DNA of 64,000 nt from Nitrospirota bacterium (GTDB lineage Bacteria; Nitrospirota; Thermodesulfovibrionia; Thermodesulfovibrionales; Dissulfurispiraceae). Both the position numbers and the translations under genes were made by a program. Every line of letters begins with the position of its first letter. Within the stretch, counting starts at the first letter, position 1. The notes under the pieces are model-generated. The model had not been told where the DNA came from. It ran no database searches and saw nothing but the letters and a program-made list of their open reading frames with translations. The stretch covers positions 62,001-126,000 of the forward strand of contig JAFGXL010000016.1 of assembly GCA_016936655.1 (NCBI GenBank), read 5' to 3'. Positions 3,417 through 63,767 of this stretch are shown one piece after another.

Positions 3417-4535
3417 ATGAAAATTGATTCAGTCACGATTTTCTGGATTATGCTGTTTTTTTTGAGCCTCTTTTTCTTATTTTCAAATATACTCCTTGCT
3501 CCATTTTTAAGGTATATGAAGTCTCTAAAATCAGTCAAAGATCAGCCTTCAGATAATACTGTGAATCTTTATAGTGTAATTGTTCCTGCTTATAACGAAG
3601 AAAAGAATATCAAGAGTAAAATTGAGACTTTGCGGCAGGCACTAAAAATGGCAACAGGAAACTTCGAGATTTTAATTGGATCAGATGGTAGTACAGACAG
3701 AACAACAGAAGTTGTCCGAACTGAACTGGAAAAGATGAATGACCCGCGGTGGAGTCTGGTGGAATACCCAAATGAGGGCAAGTGCAGAACAATTAATAAG
3801 CTTGTGAGTGTTGCCAGAGGCGAGGTGATCATTTCTACGGATGCAGATATCCCGCTCCCGACAGACTCCATTAATAAAATTGTTGAGGCATTTAATAAAA
3901 ATAATTCAATTGGCTGTTTATCATGTGTTCCATGCTTTCAGAGTATGAATATTGGGAGTCAGAAGTCATACTGGGATATTGAAGCACAAATCCGTACTGC
4001 AGAATCTGAACTCGGCAAGTTGATTGTTGTAACAGGCATGCTGTATGCCTACAAAAAGAATCTGTTTGTCGAGATGCCGGATGGTGTTATGGCTGATGAT
4101 TTATGGATACCGCTTAATATTCTGCTGCAGGGAAACAAATCTATTCAGATTGATGATCTCCGCGTGCCATATGAAAAGACGGATGAAGCAACTGAAGTAT
4201 ATAGGCGAAAAAGGGTTATAAGCGGAGGAATGGATGTTGTAAGGAGAATCTGGAAGAAGCTGAAAAAATCCCCGTCAATTCTTTTTCTTGTATTAATGCA
4301 TAAGATTAACAGATGGTCGCTGCCTGTATGGTTGATTTTGATGTTTTTGAGTATTGGAATGCTTATGCCGATTATCTTTCTTGTATATATAGCGGGCGTT
4401 TTACTGCTAATGTGGAAGTTAGGGAGAAGGCGGTTTATGTCTCTTGTATTTGCGGTAATATCGCCGATTATCTCTTTTGCAGAGGTGATTCGGTCTGCAG
4501 ATTTTGCGCGCTGGGAGCATACGAGAAAAAATTAG
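3417..4535 (+). CDS. Membrane-anchored glycosyltransferase family 2
   Basis: GT-A fold processive-type transferase. An N-terminal hydrophobic segment (about residues 8-30) precedes the GT2 domain, which has SVIVPAYNEEKNI, IGSDGSTD and the metal-binding STDADIP (DxD). ADDLWIPL is the probable catalytic acidic region, and RRKRVISGG is a Q/RxxRW-like region. Two or three further hydrophobic segments follow near the C-terminus (about 295-355). This architecture is that of enzymes that elongate and help export polysaccharide. It begins 3 nt after the previous gene. 372 aa. Sugar donor and product are not predictable. Confidence 0.85.
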   Translation: MKIDSVTIFWIMLFFLSLFFLFSNILLAPFLRYMKSLKSVKDQPSDNTVNLYSVIVPAYNEEKNIKSKIETLRQALKMATGNFEILIGSDGSTDRTTEVVRTELEKMNDPRWSLVEYPNEGKCRTINKLVSVARGEVIISTDADIPLPTDSINKIVEAFNKNNSIGCLSCVPCFQSMNIGSQKSYWDIEAQIRTAESELGKLIVVTGMLYAYKKNLFVEMPDGVMADDLWIPLNILLQGNKSIQIDDLRVPYEKTDEATEVYRRKRVISGGMDVVRRIWKKLKKSPSILFLVLMHKINRWSLPVWLILMFLSIGMLMPIIFLVYIAGVLLLMWKLGRRRFMSLVFAVISPIISFAEVIRSADFARWEHTRKN

Positions 4536-29954: not shown

Positions 29955-30284
29955 GAGTTTCTGCTTCATAAATACTTAAATGCAGTATATAGGGAGCATG
30001 TAGGAGTATCCGGCATGCTCCCTATATATTATCGTGAATCTTCTTGTTAGCCCTTCTCCTGATTTTTTCAAGTTCTTCCCAAAATTTCTGTCATGATTTT
30101 TATGTATCAAGGCTAAGGTCTTGATAATTAGATTAGAATTAATATTAGTTGCAATTAATTTATAATATGATAAAATTTAATTATAAGTCTATAAAAAATA
30201 GTTTCAAATCTATCCGCTCTATAAACGTCTTCTGCTTCAGTTTCATCACAAAAGCATCTTGATGGATGCTTAAGGAGGGACACC
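29955..30284. other. 330-nt intergenic region before the molybdoenzyme operon
   Basis: Contains the inverted repeat at 29986-30028, then an AT-rich stretch (about 30,100-30,200) with many TTAATT/TATAAT-like words. This probably holds the promoter of the molybdoenzyme operon, and the region ends with the Shine-Dalgarno AAGGAGGG before ATG 30285. I cannot assign one -35/-10 pair. No gene is seen. Confidence 0.5.
29986..30028 (+). terminator. Inverted repeat, probable terminator of the NrfJ-like gene
   Basis: TATATAGGGAGCATG and its exact reverse complement CATGCTCCCTATATA form a 15-bp stem with a 13-nt loop. It lies 31 nt after the stop. The following bases are TTATCG rather than a T-run, so termination efficiency is uncertain. 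Confidence 0.6.
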
Positions 30285-32948
30285 ATGGGCAGTAACCTAC
30301 AGGAAAAGCTTCTGGAAGTTGATTTCGACAGGCTGTCTATTGACAGGAGAGGGTTTTTAAGAGGGTTGAGCATATTGGCAGCAGGTGCTGCTTTTGGGCT
30401 CGGCAGCTCACCTCTAAGTTCTGCTTCTGCTGCTACAGTAAGGGTGCAGGATCGTTTTGTCTTTGATAACGAAATGAAGACCATAATGACCCACCACCGT
30501 ATTCATTGCCACGGCTCTTGCATGCTAAAGGCCTATGTGAAGAACGGCAGACTGCTGAAGCTGACATCAGTGGGAGATATCCCAAGAGAAGGGTCTCAGA
30601 AGTTTGACGAAGATGTTGTCACCTAACAGAGGCGCGCATGTATAAGAGGCCTCTCAGAGAAGAAGAGGCTTTACGCGCCGGACAGACTTAAATATCCACT
30701 GAAACAGACACTCGAAAGGGGCAATGTTCGCGGATTTAAAAGGATATCATGGGATGAGGCACTTGATACAGTGGCCGGCTGGGTAAAAGAGGTTGCAGCA
30801 AAGAAGAAGGACCTCGGGTATCTGCCTATATGGAATGTGGGGCAGAGTCCACTTCCTCTGCTCGGGCCATGCGTAGATGTTTACGGCCACCACTCAGCGG
30901 GCAACCAGATGGATGCGATGGTAGCTGCAATCGGATCATCAGTACAGGGCAATACATCAATAGATGCCCATAACTCAAAGCTGATTATCCTCTGGTCAAA
31001 TGATCCCAAGTCGAGCCAGGCGCATCTCTCGTTCAGACTCACAAAGGCGAAGGAGAACGGAGCTGCGATAGTTGTTGTTGATCCAAGATATACAGACAGC
31101 GCTGCAACCATGGCTACAGGCATAAAGGATGTGCCGGGCTGGATAGCGATAAGGCCAGCTACAGATACAGCAATGCTATCAGCTATGGCTAATGTAATAT
31201 ACCGCAAAAAGCTGCATGATGAAGATTTTATTAAAAAGTATTGTTTCGGCTTTTATCCCGGAGACGAGGTGGTGAGCGACTCTCCAATGAAAGACCCTGT
31301 AACCGGTGCTCCATTTAAGGGACAGAAGTTCAACGTTCCAGAAGGTCAGTCTTTTGTGGAGTATCTTGATTCTCTAGAAAAAGAGCATGGCGGTTATGAC
31401 GGCGTGCTTAAGTGGGCTTCAAAACTTACAGGAGCGCCTGCAAAGGTTATAGAGTCTTTTGCTGTGCAGTATGCCACAGTTAAGCCTGCAGCAGTATGGG
31501 GCGGATGGACATCCGGCGGAGCCCAGAGAAATAACGCTGGCATGTTCTACTCATGGCTTATTATCGCAATAAGCGCGATGACCGGCAATATAACAAGGAG
31601 GGGCGGCGGTATCGGCATGGTCAGCCCGAGCGACGGATACAAACCAAAACTTGGACCACAGCCTGCGGTGTCAAAAACCAAGGCTGCAAGGCCAATATTG
31701 GTATCAAGATATAACACATCAGAGGTGCTGCTTACAGGCAGGGATACACGCACTGCTGAACAGCTGCGTGCTGATGTGCTGACAATGAACAAAATAGATC
31801 TTGGGGCTGATCCGCGTATCCAGATAGACATGATATTCAGAGGCGGAGGCTCGGTTGACGAGTTTAACCAGAGGTCGAGCATAAACAAAAAGAGGCTCGC
31901 CTGGAAGAAGCCCAAATATGTTGTTTCTTATGAGTGGGTCATGAGTTCCACTGCCGCATGGTCTGACATCATACTGCCTGCTGCTATGAATCTGGAGCAG
32001 AGCTTTTTCACATTCGGGCAGATAGGCGCAAATCTCGATGTTGTTAATAAGGTTATAGAGCCAATGTACGAGAGCAAGCCGGACTGGCAGATTAATGAGA
32101 TGCTCGCAAAGCGTCTCGGTATCGAATACGGCCGCAATGGACTTTCTGATATCGACATTATGAAGAAGCAGTGGGAAAAGGCTACGATGCCTGAGGCATA
32201 CAAGGCTATTGATCCTGCTGCAAAGCTGCCTTCATTTGATGAGATTATTCAGAATGCCCAGCTTCTTCTCCCTACGCCGGTGGACAAGACATTTGTGCAT
32301 GCTGCCACATTCGCTCCAGGTAAATTCCAGACAGACACAGGCAAGATCAACTTCTATTCGCCTTACTACGCAAGGAGACAGAGAGTTACGGCAAAGGTCT
32401 ACAGGCCGCAGTACATAAGACCTTTTGAAGGATACGAGGATATACTCGAAGGCAAGAAAGGAGTTAAGGGCGTAAAATACGGCCTGCAGTTTGTAACTCC
32501 GCATCTGCTGCCGAGGGCGCACTCAAGTTTTGACAATGTGCCCATACTGAAAGACCTGATGCCGCATGCAGTGGAGATGCATCCGCTTGACGCTCAGAAG
32601 CGGGGCATAAAAGATGGTCAGATTGTATATGTTTATAATGATATGGGATGCATAAAACTGCCGGCAAGGATTACAAAGAGGATCATTCCCGGAGTTGTAT
32701 GTATTGGCCATGGCGTTTGGTATAGGCCGAGCCTTACAGAGACATACAAGGCATGGTATGACTCTGATGGAAACGGCAAGATGGAAAAACATACTGTGCC
32801 TGTTGATGTTGGGGGCTGCACAAGCACGCTTGCATATGATATCGAGTCCGGAGCAGGTGATCCTTTTACGCATCTGATCAACAAAAAGACCGGCGGATTT
32901 GCAGGCAACGGCAATCTCTGTGAAGTAAGCGTCAACAAACCACAATAA
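30285..32948 (+). pseudogene. Tat-exported molybdopterin oxidoreductase, catalytic subunit, with in-frame TAA
   Basis: One 887-codon DMSO-reductase-superfamily gene interrupted by a single in-frame TAA at 30624-30626. Translation on both sides stays in the same frame and joins naturally (stop, then QRRACIRGLSEKKRLYAPDR, the conserved fourth-Cys region). The N-terminus has a twin-arginine signal, DRRGFLRGLSILAAGAA. The cluster motif reads H-x3-C-x3-C (HRIHCHGSC) with the last Cys in RACIRG. Molybdopterin-binding parts follow, e.g. WSNDPKSSQAH, VVVDPRYTDSA, SDIILPAAMNLEQ and VEMHPLDAQKRGI. TAA is not a selenocysteine codon. It is either a recent nonsense mutation, a sequence error, or read through. 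Likely a periplasmic sulfur-compound, DMSO or oxyanion reductase; the substrate is unknown. An intact FeS subunit and TorD chaperone follow. Confidence 0.85.
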
Positions 32949-32962
32949 CAGGGGGATCTAAT

Positions 32963-33679
32963 ATGAAACAGTGGGGATTTTATTTCGATCAATCAAGATG
33001 CCTGGCCTGCAATGCCTGTGTAATTGCTTGCAAGATATGGAATGAAGAACATAGGGGTGATGCCGGACTTAATCCTGAGCTCAGCTGGCTGAAATCAGGC
33101 AAATACGCCGAGCCTGCTGAATATGACAACCTGCCCGGCAGCACAGGCGCGCAGAATTATGCTGAACTCAGAAAGTATGACATGAAGGAAAACTGGAGGC
33201 GAGTTACCACAACAGAGTATGGCGAGCTGCCGCCAGTAGTTGATGTGCTGAATCTCTCTCTCTCATGCAACCACTGCACAAACCCTCCATGTGCAAAAGT
33301 ATGTCCTGTCAGAATAATAACCAAAGATCCTGATACAGGAATTGTGCTGGTGGATACACCAAAGTGTGTAACATGCGGAGCCTGCCTAAGGGCATGTCCT
33401 TGGGGAGCGCCGCAGTTCTATCTGTCCAAAATCACAGGATTTGAGATGTCAGATCCTTTAAGGCCCAAGATGACAAAATGCACGCTCTGCATAGACAGAA
33501 TAAAACAGGGTCTCAAACCTGCTTGTGTTGCAGCATGCCAGAACAGGGCGCTTGATGCTGGACCGATTGATGAGCTCAAGGCAAAGTATAAGGACTGGAC
33601 AGATAATGTTGATAATTTCAAACAGGACAAAGATGCTGGTCCGAATATAATATTCAAAAAGAAGAAGCTCAAGGTCTGA
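32963..33679 (+). CDS. Four-cluster ferredoxin subunit (DmsB/PhsB type)
   Basis: 238-aa electron-transfer subunit with the four ferredoxin-type motifs of DmsB/PsrB/NrfC proteins: CLACNACVIAC, CNHCTNPPCAKVC, CVTCGACLRAC and CTLCIDRIKQGLKPACVAAC. It would pass electrons from a quinol-oxidising partner to the molybdoenzyme. No NrfD/DmsC-like membrane subunit follows, so the partner is elsewhere or the complex is soluble. It starts 14 nt after the catalytic gene behind GGGGG. Confidence 0.93.
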   Translation: MKQWGFYFDQSRCLACNACVIACKIWNEEHRGDAGLNPELSWLKSGKYAEPAEYDNLPGSTGAQNYAELRKYDMKENWRRVTTTEYGELPPVVDVLNLSLSCNHCTNPPCAKVCPVRIITKDPDTGIVLVDTPKCVTCGACLRACPWGAPQFYLSKITGFEMSDPLRPKMTKCTLCIDRIKQGLKPACVAACQNRALDAGPIDELKAKYKDWTDNVDNFKQDKDAGPNIIFKKKKLKV

Positions 33680-33725
33680 TCGAGCTGTACATTGCGGTAT
33701 AAAAATATTATTAACGGAGATGCAT

Positions 33726-34439
33726 ATGGCAGAAAAGGGCGCTGAGTACGAAGAGATACAGATTGATCTTGATGCTGTAGTACAGGCGCATTTTGATATT
33801 TATGCTGTGCTCGCCAGGGGATTTTCTCTGGAAGCTGACTCTGAATATCTGGATGATCTCGCAAGAGTTCTGCCATGGCTTCAACAGGTGTCTGAAGCCT
33901 TTGAGGATGAGCACCTGTCTGCAGGAGTTAAAGGCCTCAAGGATATACTCTCCCTGCCAGACAGAGACAAACTAATACAGGATCTTCAGAGACAGTATGC
34001 CTCTATATTTCTTACAGGCGTGCGCGGCATGTCTGTAAATCCGTGCGAATCAGTATATCTGTCTGCAGAGCGTCTTGTGATGCAGGAGCAGAGGGACGAG
34101 TCGCTGGAGTTCTACGCTCGCTTCGGCATGGGCGTAAGCGAAGATTTTAAAGAGCCTGAAGATCATATCGGAGCCCAGCTCTCATTTATGAGCGGGCTCT
34201 CGATGCGCGCATTATCCGCTATGCGATCCAGCGGAGATGAGCCTGCTGAACATTTTGTAAGCGGTCAGGCAGAGTTTATCCGGCAGCATCTCATTAAGTG
34301 GCTGCCTCTGCTACATCAGGATATTCACAAGTCATCTGCATCCGGATTTTATGCAGACCTGATGAGCATCACTTATGGGTTTGTGCGCAAAGATCTGGAG
34401 TATCTGGAAGAGATAGGGAGACTGCTTAAGGCTGTGTAG
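33726..34439 (+). CDS. TorD/DmsD-family molybdoenzyme chaperone
   Basis: About 237-aa all-helical cytoplasmic chaperone of the TorD family. The core LQRQYASIFLTGVRGMSVNPCESVY (inner part Y-x-x-I/L-F) is the recognisable signature, followed by EPEDHIGAQLSFM, which matches the family E-P-x-D-H motif. It inserts cofactor into, and proofreads Tat export of, the partner enzyme encoded two genes upstream. GGAG at 33716-33719 favours ATG 33726 over ATG 33720. Confidence 0.9.
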   Translation: MAEKGAEYEEIQIDLDAVVQAHFDIYAVLARGFSLEADSEYLDDLARVLPWLQQVSEAFEDEHLSAGVKGLKDILSLPDRDKLIQDLQRQYASIFLTGVRGMSVNPCESVYLSAERLVMQEQRDESLEFYARFGMGVSEDFKEPEDHIGAQLSFMSGLSMRALSAMRSSGDEPAEHFVSGQAEFIRQHLIKWLPLLHQDIHKSSASGFYADLMSITYGFVRKDLEYLEEIGRLLKAV

Positions 34440-34509: not shown

Positions 34510-34586
<77 letters not shown>

Positions 34587-43539: not shown

Positions 43540-45065
43540 ATGAAACAAAAGATCGCGGTGATTCTTATATGCCTGCTCTTGTATGCTGTTTTCATCGGCT
43601 CTCTTATAATCGAGTTTGACAAGCGCAAGGTAAATTACATAAATGAAAATATAGATCTGCTTTCAGCAAAGGTTAACGCAACAGTCGAGAATCTGAAGCG
43701 TTTTTCGATGTATGTATTCGAGGGCAGTGTGAATACTCCGGTTGTGCTTTCCAATGTATGCAGTGCATGGAAGGCTGATAAAAACGGCAGATCAGTTTAC
43801 AGAGAAGATCTTTATGAACAGATGCTGCCTATTTACAACAGGCTTCTTGAGTATAATTTCAGACAGCTCCACTTTCACTTTCCTAACAGCGACAGCTTTC
43901 TCAGAATGCATAGCAAGGCAGATTTTGGTGATAACCTAGCGTGCGTTACTCAGTAAAGGCAGTTAATGAGAATCATAAATTTATTGCCGGCTTTGAAGAG
44001 GGGCGTATATTTAATGGATACAGATTTGTATATCCGTTGATGAAAAATAATGAACACTGCGGATCTGTAGAAGTCTCTTTTTCGATGGGATCTTTTTTGA
44101 ATGTGTTATCGAGGCTTTCGACAAATGATTTTGCATTTGCTATTAAACGCTCTGTAGTGGAAGGAGCGGTTTTTGAGCATAAAAAGCACAACTATGCGCA
44201 GAGCGCTTTTTCTCCGGAGTATATGTTTGACAAAGACATATACAGCAGCTCACGCAGCGATGCTTTTCTTAAGTCTATTTCAGACATGCTTATGCCTCAC
44301 CTGCTTAAAGGCAGGGATTTTGGATTCATTCATAAACAAAACAGCAGACCATACTTGGTGCTTTTTAAAACTGTAAGTAATTTTCAGGGGCAGGATGTTG
44401 CTTATCTGATATCTATTGGGCAGGACAAGGGGTATGAGCAGATAAACAGGGATTTTATCCGTATTGTTATTATATCCGCTGTTTTGTTTATTGTTATCGC
44501 TGTGCTGCTTATTTTGTTTGTTGATGAGAGGCAGAGGCTTAAACAGCTCTCCAGCACTGACATGCTCACCAAGGTAGCGAACAGACGCAGTTTCATAGAG
44601 CGTGCTGAGACAGAGATGGCGCGTTCAGACAGGTATGGACTGCCGCTTTCTGTTGTGCTTTTTGATATAGATGATTTTAAATCGCTGAATGATAGATTCG
44701 GACATAATGAGGGCGACAGAGTGCTGCGCAATGTAGCAAGAGTTGTTTTAAGGGCTATAAGATCTTCTGATCTATTTGGAAGATGGGGAGGAGAAGAATT
44801 TGTATTTATGCTGCCGCACACAGATTCTGCAGCAGCGATAGCAGTGGCAGAAAAGGTCTGCTCTGCTATAAGAAATGCAAAAATAAGTCTGGTCAGCGAG
44901 GTTACAGCAAGTTTTGGCGTTGCTACTTATAAGGGCGCAGAGACGCTTGAGGATTTTATTGACAGGGCTGATTCTGCGATGTATCAAGCTAAACGTAGCG
45001 GGAAAAATTGCGTAAGACTTGCTCCTATGTCCGATTCAGAAGACAGCAGCTGCGGCCTGGAGTAG
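43540..45065 (+). pseudogene. Sensor diguanylate cyclase split by a frameshift
   Basis: One gene in two frames. Codons 1-135 (from ATG 43540) give an N-terminal transmembrane segment and the first part of a periplasmic sensor domain, ending ...SFLRMHSKADFGDNLA. Near 43,940 the frame must move, and the rest (from a GTG at 43941) continues RYSVKAVNENHKFIAGFEEG to 45065, with a second transmembrane segment and a GGDEF domain. The active site is GGEEF (GRWGGEEFVFML), and an inhibitory RxxD (RSSD) lies five residues upstream. One missing base explains the break. It would make c-di-GMP if read as one protein; as written it is probably broken, unless the base is a sequencing error. Confidence 0.8.
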
Positions 45066-61889: not shown

Positions 61890-63767
61890 ATGAAAAATGT
61901 GATACTCGGCACAGCAGGACATATTGACCACGGCAAGAGCTCTCTTGTAAAGGCGCTTACAGGCACAGATCCTGATAGGCTAAAAGAAGAGAAGGCCCGC
62001 GGCATAACAATTGATCTCGGTTTTGCCAATCTCCCATTTCCCGATGGCATAACAGTAGGCATAGTAGATGTTCCGGGTCATGAGAGGCTTATTAAAAATA
62101 TGCTCGCAGGAGCAGGCGGCATAGATATATTGCTGATGACAATAGCAGCTGATGAGGGCATAATGCCCCAGAGCAGAGAGCATCTTGCCATATGTAATAT
62201 GCTAAGGATAAAAAACGGCATAATCGTGTTGACAAAGTCTGACCTTGTTGATCCTGAATGGCTTGAGCTTGTTAAAGAAGAGGCAAAAAAATTTGTTAAG
62301 GGCACATTTCTGGAGAGCGCAGACATCATACCAGTATCGTCAAAGACAGGTGACGGTCTCGACGATCTTAAAAACAGGATATATGAATTAGCAAAAATTA
62401 CAGCTCCTAAATTGATAAACGGTATATTCAGGCTGCCTGTGGACAGGATATTCACACTTAAAGGATTTGGGACAGTGGTGACAGGCACTGTCCTGTCTGG
62501 TACGATTGGCCTCGACAGTCCTGTAGAGATACTTCCATCAGGCATATCAACAAAGGTTAGAGGGCTCCAGAGCCACGGCAAAAGCGCAGACAAGGTTTAT
62601 GCAGGGCAGAGAGCCGGAGTAAATCTTCAGGGCATAGATAAAGAATCTTTAAAAAGAGGGGATGTTGTTGTTGTCCCGGGCAGGTTTTTATCCACAGCAG
62701 TGATTGATGCAGAGATTGAGCTGTTAGCTGAATCCCCATTAGTAAAAAGCAGATCTCTTCTGCATTTCTATTCCGGCACATCAGAGACAATAGCGAGGGT
62801 TATTCTTTATGATAGAGACGAGCTGAAGCCCGGTGAAAAGTGCTTTTGCCAGTTCAGGCTTAAAGATACCATAGTCGCGCTTTCTGGAGACAGGTTTATT
62901 GTCAGGCGGCTCTCTCCTCTTGAAACAATAGGTGGAGGAGAGATTCTCGACCCTCATCCTCTGAAACGCAAGAGGAGTCAGGGTACTGAAGACCTTGCAG
63001 CAATAAGCAGCGGAAGCATAGAGGCAAAGATTGAGACCAGAATAAGACGGGCTGGACTTGCAGCTGTTACGAAATCTGAGATAGAGGGCTGGATAAGCTG
63101 CGATCTGCCCGAGATATACGAAGCATTGTCTGTTCTCGAGAAAAAAGGCTCCATCATATCTGTGCAGGGTATGTTTTTTCATAAAGAGGCTTTTGAACTC
63201 TTCAAAAGATCAGCAAAAGATCAGCTTGACAGATTTCATAAAGCCAATCCTTTAAAATCCGGCATGCCCAAAGAGGATCTGAGGCTTAAAATTAAGGCTG
63301 GGCAGAAGCCGTACATCGCTCTTTTATCAGTTATTGGCGATATAGTTTCTGATAAAGATACATTGAGGCTTAGGGCATTTAACCCTGCTGTTGGTTCTGC
63401 TGATGAGGGGTTAAAGAAGAAGGTGCTTGATATACTTTCAAAAGAGGAATTTCAGCCTTTATCAAGGGCTGAGATAGCACAGAAGTTTTCAGTTCCTGAA
63501 AAGAATGTTACAGATCTGCTCAAGCTTTTATCCAAAGAAGGTCTTTTGGTCAGAATAACAGATGCAGTATATCTTACAAAAGAAAATTACGATATAATGA
63601 TAAACAGGCTAAGACAGCATTTCTCAAAAAAGCAGGATATGACTGTAGCTGAGTTCAGGGATCTGTTGGCTACGAGCAGAAAGTTTGCGATGCCGTTTCT
63701 GGAGTATCTGGATTCGAATAAAATAACCCTGCGTGTTGGGGATGCAAGAAAATTCATGCTAAAATAA
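61890..63767 (+). CDS. selB: Selenocysteine-specific elongation factor SelB
   Basis: 625-aa GTPase delivering selenocysteyl-tRNA to UGA codons with a SECIS hairpin. The G domain has [10 protein letters not shown] at 10-19, [22 protein letters not shown] and TKSDL. Two beta-barrel domains follow to about 370, including [13 protein letters not shown]. The C-terminal winged-helix repeats (about 380-625) bind SECIS RNA. The 'ITIDLGFA' switch and the C-terminal extension separate it from EF-Tu. No selA, selC or selD and no selenoprotein gene is evident in this window. Confidence 0.95.

Follow-up and report, generated by a model that had tools for sequence, protein, structure and literature searches.

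DMSO reductases of the DmsA/YnfE type carry a twin-arginine (Tat) signal, molybdopterin domains and a Ser that ligates the molybdenum, and their catalytic gene is accompanied by genes for a DmsB-like Fe-S subunit and a TorD chaperone. A three-gene operon that encodes the catalytic subunit, the Fe-S subunit and TorD in this order is present in Mucispirillum (L009-L011). In the same superfamily, in-frame stop codons are found in selenocysteine (Sec) containing formate dehydrogenases, in which a TGA at the Mo-ligand position is accompanied by a hairpin with a GGTC or GGCTC loop. Finally, there are bacterial pseudogenes in which a single in-frame stop interrupts the conserved frame of a patchily distributed accessory gene, while the partner genes and the homologs elsewhere are intact. 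Within the limited library that we searched, we found no paper on a nonsense-interrupted DmsA-like combination.

Here we report the analysis of a DNA stretch of 64,000 nucleotides, in the following called the window, which belongs to a genome of 1.99 Mb in 42 contigs from a metagenome-type assembly. We think it likely, with a probability of roughly 0.73, that a laterally acquired, Tat-exported, DmsA-like molybdoenzyme (CISM superfamily, S/N-oxide-reductase type) encoded in this window has lost its catalytic subunit to a recent nonsense mutation.

Results and Discussion

The catalytic gene reads on the forward strand from an ATG at 30285, which is preceded by the Shine-Dalgarno sequence AAGGAGGG, to a TAA at 32946-32948. 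The single frame is open except for another TAA at 30624-30626, which is codon 114 of 888. The part ahead of this stop (30285..30623, 113 codons), assigned by translation, profile match and an alignment with ten homologs, contains the Tat signal DRRGFLRG, detected by TIGR01409 above its cut-off, and the His-x3-Cys-x3-Cys portion of the [4Fe-4S] motif. The stop itself occupies a variable column immediately 5' of the invariant Gln of a QRRAC motif. It is followed by the rest of the catalytic subunit (30627..32948, 773 codons) with the fourth Fe-S Cys and the molybdopterin oxidoreductase and dinucleotide-binding domains (PF00384, E 6e-37; PF01568, E 9e-21), which are the domains of the CISM molybdopterin oxidoreductases. 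The coding signal is 0.64 per codon over the 773 codons behind the stop and 0.34 ahead of it, and thus of normal strength in both parts.

Both parts match the DmsA/YnfE model TIGR02166, covering profile positions 1-71 before and 86-771 after the stop (E 8e-106). With 17.9 and 354.9 bits, respectively, against a curated cut-off of 777.7 bits, both stay far below the score required for the family. It shares with the DmsA/YnfE-type enzymes the Tat signal, the molybdopterin domains, the adjoining partner genes and a Ser that aligns with the Mo-ligand Ser of the solved DMSO reductases. It differs from them by its low score, by a His where the first Fe-S Cys would be expected, by the TAA and by the lack of a membrane-anchor gene in the operon.

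The two downstream genes, also on the forward strand, are intact. A DmsB-like 4Fe-4S electron-transfer subunit is encoded at 32963..33679 (TIGR02951, E 2e-43; PF13247) and a TorD-family chaperone at 33720..34439 (PF02613, E 2e-28; NF003442, E 6e-27), so that the partner 4Fe-4S subunit and the TorD-type chaperone of the CISM enzymes are both present, in the gene order seen in Mucispirillum. The operon adjoins the 3' end of a tRNA-Met gene on the minus strand (34510..34586). Genes for DsrMK, sulfate adenylyltransferase and a pyrophosphatase are located nearby and indicate a sulfate-reducing lineage. A preliminary description of the locus had claimed that the gene of a Tat-exported molybdoenzyme is intact but for a single TAA, with conserved residues around the stop and intact downstream genes, and all of this is borne out by the frame, the profile matches to both parts and the alignment.

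For this alignment we compared ten related catalytic genes from the phylum of Mucispirillum. All ten are uninterrupted, and the residues that flank the stop can be aligned with them free of gaps; the window gene thus pairs a premature stop with open homologs in the manner of a nonsense pseudogene. At the stop column the homologs have Arg (CGC/CGT, four times), Val (GTC/GTG, three times), Gly (GGC), Ile (ATT) and Pro (CCA), and none of the ten has a stop there. The earlier statement that Gln or Pro is common at this position does not agree with such a variable column. The one-base change from CAA to TAA proposed along with it finds no support either, since Gln occurs at the column in none of the ten homologs; the invariant Gln sits one codon further on. 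Seven orthologs share 213 invariant positions, 205 of which are retained in the window protein, so that no decay is detectable. This is consistent with a very recent loss, but also with a sequence error or with a rescue by readthrough.

The nearest homologs come from the phylum of Mucispirillum, this genus included, and the best five are 58-61% identical. The catalytic subunit of the Mucispirillum operon, 57-58% identical, has the motifs HHRIHCHGSC and QRRAC in common with the window protein, and neither operon includes a membrane-anchor gene, but the Mucispirillum gene is uninterrupted and contains an Arg codon at the stop column. In the other 395 genomes of the window's own phylum we detected no catalytic gene at E <= 1e-100. 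With the nearest homologs in the Mucispirillum phylum, this makes the operon an accessory one, a property that fits a recent loss. A relative from the same family has its tRNA-Met and rdgB similarly arranged and, genome-wide, lacks a catalytic homolog at E <= 1e-100. Judged from this arrangement, the operon was likely gained laterally at tRNA-Met. The plasmid collection contained only distant DmsA sequences.

With the stop read as such, translation would halt after 113 residues, giving a product with the export signal and a part of the Fe-S motif, which would lack the molybdopterin domain. The first possible restart past the TAA is a GTG at 30771, 48 codons on; we rejected it as a remedy, as its product would have neither the Tat signal nor the fourth Fe-S ligand Cys. 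We infer that the living population carries this stop and that it abolishes the function. The enzyme is probably not made, while the genes for the Fe-S subunit and the chaperone would not yet have decayed. An operon for respiration may thus be non-functional even though it looks complete in the assembled genome, and gene presence is no sufficient basis for predicting S/N-oxide-type respiration in the organism.

The preliminary description had left the choice between a recent loss, an assembly error and phase variation. The first two stand as the main candidates. Phase variation, or another reversible switch of the catalytic gene, strikes us as hardly credible: beyond the intact remainder of the gene nothing speaks for it, the site has no simple-sequence or tandem repeat, and short repeats nearby are at chance level. 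The lone strong inverted repeat (29986-30028) is terminator-like and lies ~600 bp upstream, outside the gene.

Next, we considered whether the TAA can be decoded. Among 895 long open reading frames of the genome, 377 end with TAA, 277 with TGA and 241 with TAG, so all three codons serve as terminators and none is reassigned. ARAGORN at its default threshold detected 41 tRNAs; the sole stop reader among them is tRNA-Sec (C34:51580-51677), and the set includes no suppressor of ochre or amber codons. A reassignment, which would show in a codon missing as terminator or in a cognate suppressor tRNA, is rejected on these grounds. The usual reading of all three stops and the lack of a suppressor speak for a recent loss of the enzyme, and we take the TAA to be an ordinary event that involves no new reading of the genetic code.

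Selenocysteine is rejected as well. The window does encode SelB (61890-63767; TIGR00475, 363.8 bits against a cut-off of 242.25), as had been noted before. The earlier remark that TAA does not code for Sec is correct as well; the probable Sec sites of the genome are all TGA. Furthermore, the homologs have Arg, Gly, Ile, Pro or Val at position 30624 rather than Cys or Sec, and the loop of the hairpin behind the stop is free of GGTC. Judged by context, the probable Sec codons are those of two formate dehydrogenases (C34:40540 and C32:36608), a thioredoxin-fold protein (C32:40710), a peroxiredoxin (C6:2400) and an MvhD-like protein (C42:51446), and a hairpin with a GGT-type loop lies behind most of these codons. 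The two formate dehydrogenases belong to the superfamily of the window enzyme and likewise contain an in-frame stop, but theirs is a TGA at the Mo-ligand position with the GGTC/GGCTC-loop hairpin, whereas the TAA of the window is situated at a variable, non-catalytic position. Even where a genome encodes the selenocysteine machinery, an in-frame stop in a molybdoenzyme need not be a recoding site.

A different form of recoding would be that ribosomes sometimes decode the TAA, perhaps aided by the hairpin, and so produce full-length enzyme. The hairpin, predicted to be stable, is located at 30631..30679 on the forward strand and begins 7 nt past the stop. Counted from the stop, the first 60 nt have a folding z of ~ -3.5, and of 900 random coding windows 0.44% attain this value, with the length of 60 nt picked post hoc. 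This fold, the conserved coding sequence behind the stop and the interruption of a second molybdoenzyme (see below) would fit readthrough. However, about 5% of the 100-nt windows within the catalytic gene are equally structured, the loop is not of the SECIS type, and the intact homologs, which have sense codons there, do not form the hairpin. The preliminary description had named a relative with the same stop as a pointer to readthrough, and no relative carries it. None of the positive evidence for readthrough survives the comparison with relatives; with no suppressor tRNA detected either, we regard it as very improbable. The hairpin is probably incidental, though unexplained.

The genome contains other disruptions. 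A scan by codon statistics, which recovers ~59% of simulated internal stops, added two clear nonsense codons that do not belong to selenoproteins. The first, a TAG (3819-3821), interrupts a second Tat-exported molybdoenzyme gene (C9; L024:3141-5582), and an open relative of 86% identity (L129) has Trp in its place. The other is a lone TAG at 43944 in an otherwise open gene for an efflux membrane-fusion protein (C23, minus strand, 44580-43437; L078). With this, two of the three respiratory molybdoenzyme genes that we located by homology search, formate dehydrogenases set aside, are broken. Given the window gene, the probability that at least one of the two other nonsense codons falls into the two remaining respiratory molybdoenzymes is below 1% by length, a rough figure for a class chosen afterwards. 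We take the accumulation of two of the three nonsense codons in molybdoenzymes to favor a relaxed need for these enzymes over random error, without being decisive.

One could also imagine that the organism tolerates a single TAA or TAG in its Tat-exported respiratory molybdoenzymes and obtains some full-length enzyme by structure-assisted readthrough. If true, this would account for the undecayed sequence behind the stop and for the fact that two genes are affected, but the two interrupted genes differ in their stop codon and the sites are unrelated. The chance for such a system appears very slim.

The main rival of a recent loss is a sequencing or assembly error, or the consensus base of a minority strain, in which case the real gene would be intact. 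Normal constraint all around codon 114, the intact Fe-S subunit and chaperone genes and the fragmented assembly are all consistent with it. Known from assembled sequence, the window gene is a candidate member of the single-nonsense pseudogenes, which it resembles in its one in-frame stop, its conserved frame, its intact partners and homologs and its patchy distribution. Errors are not frequent in this genome, however. When 226 open reading frames of a relative were compared with it, we found no frameshift and no true internal stop outside selenoproteins; the in-frame stops that did appear lay in antisense shadow frames, apart from the MvhD-like selenocysteine site. This clean result indicates that disruptions are few, and the two hits in molybdoenzymes would be unexpected for random errors. 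We therefore assign an error a minority share that deserves to be taken seriously, and prefer a recent nonsense mutation, for which the frame that is intact but for one codon and the varied sense codons of the open homologs at this position also argue.

A frameshift scan by codon statistics gave 42 candidates, and the subset that was inspected resembles normal gene junctions. Further nonsense candidates (C33, C31, C18, C7 and C23:51868) were rejected, as they appear to be ordinary adjacent genes. At C42:16768, a TAA separates a substrate-binding-protein-like frame of 380 codons from a sensor-like one of 1041 codons in the same frame; these could be two genes or another case of a nonsense codon.
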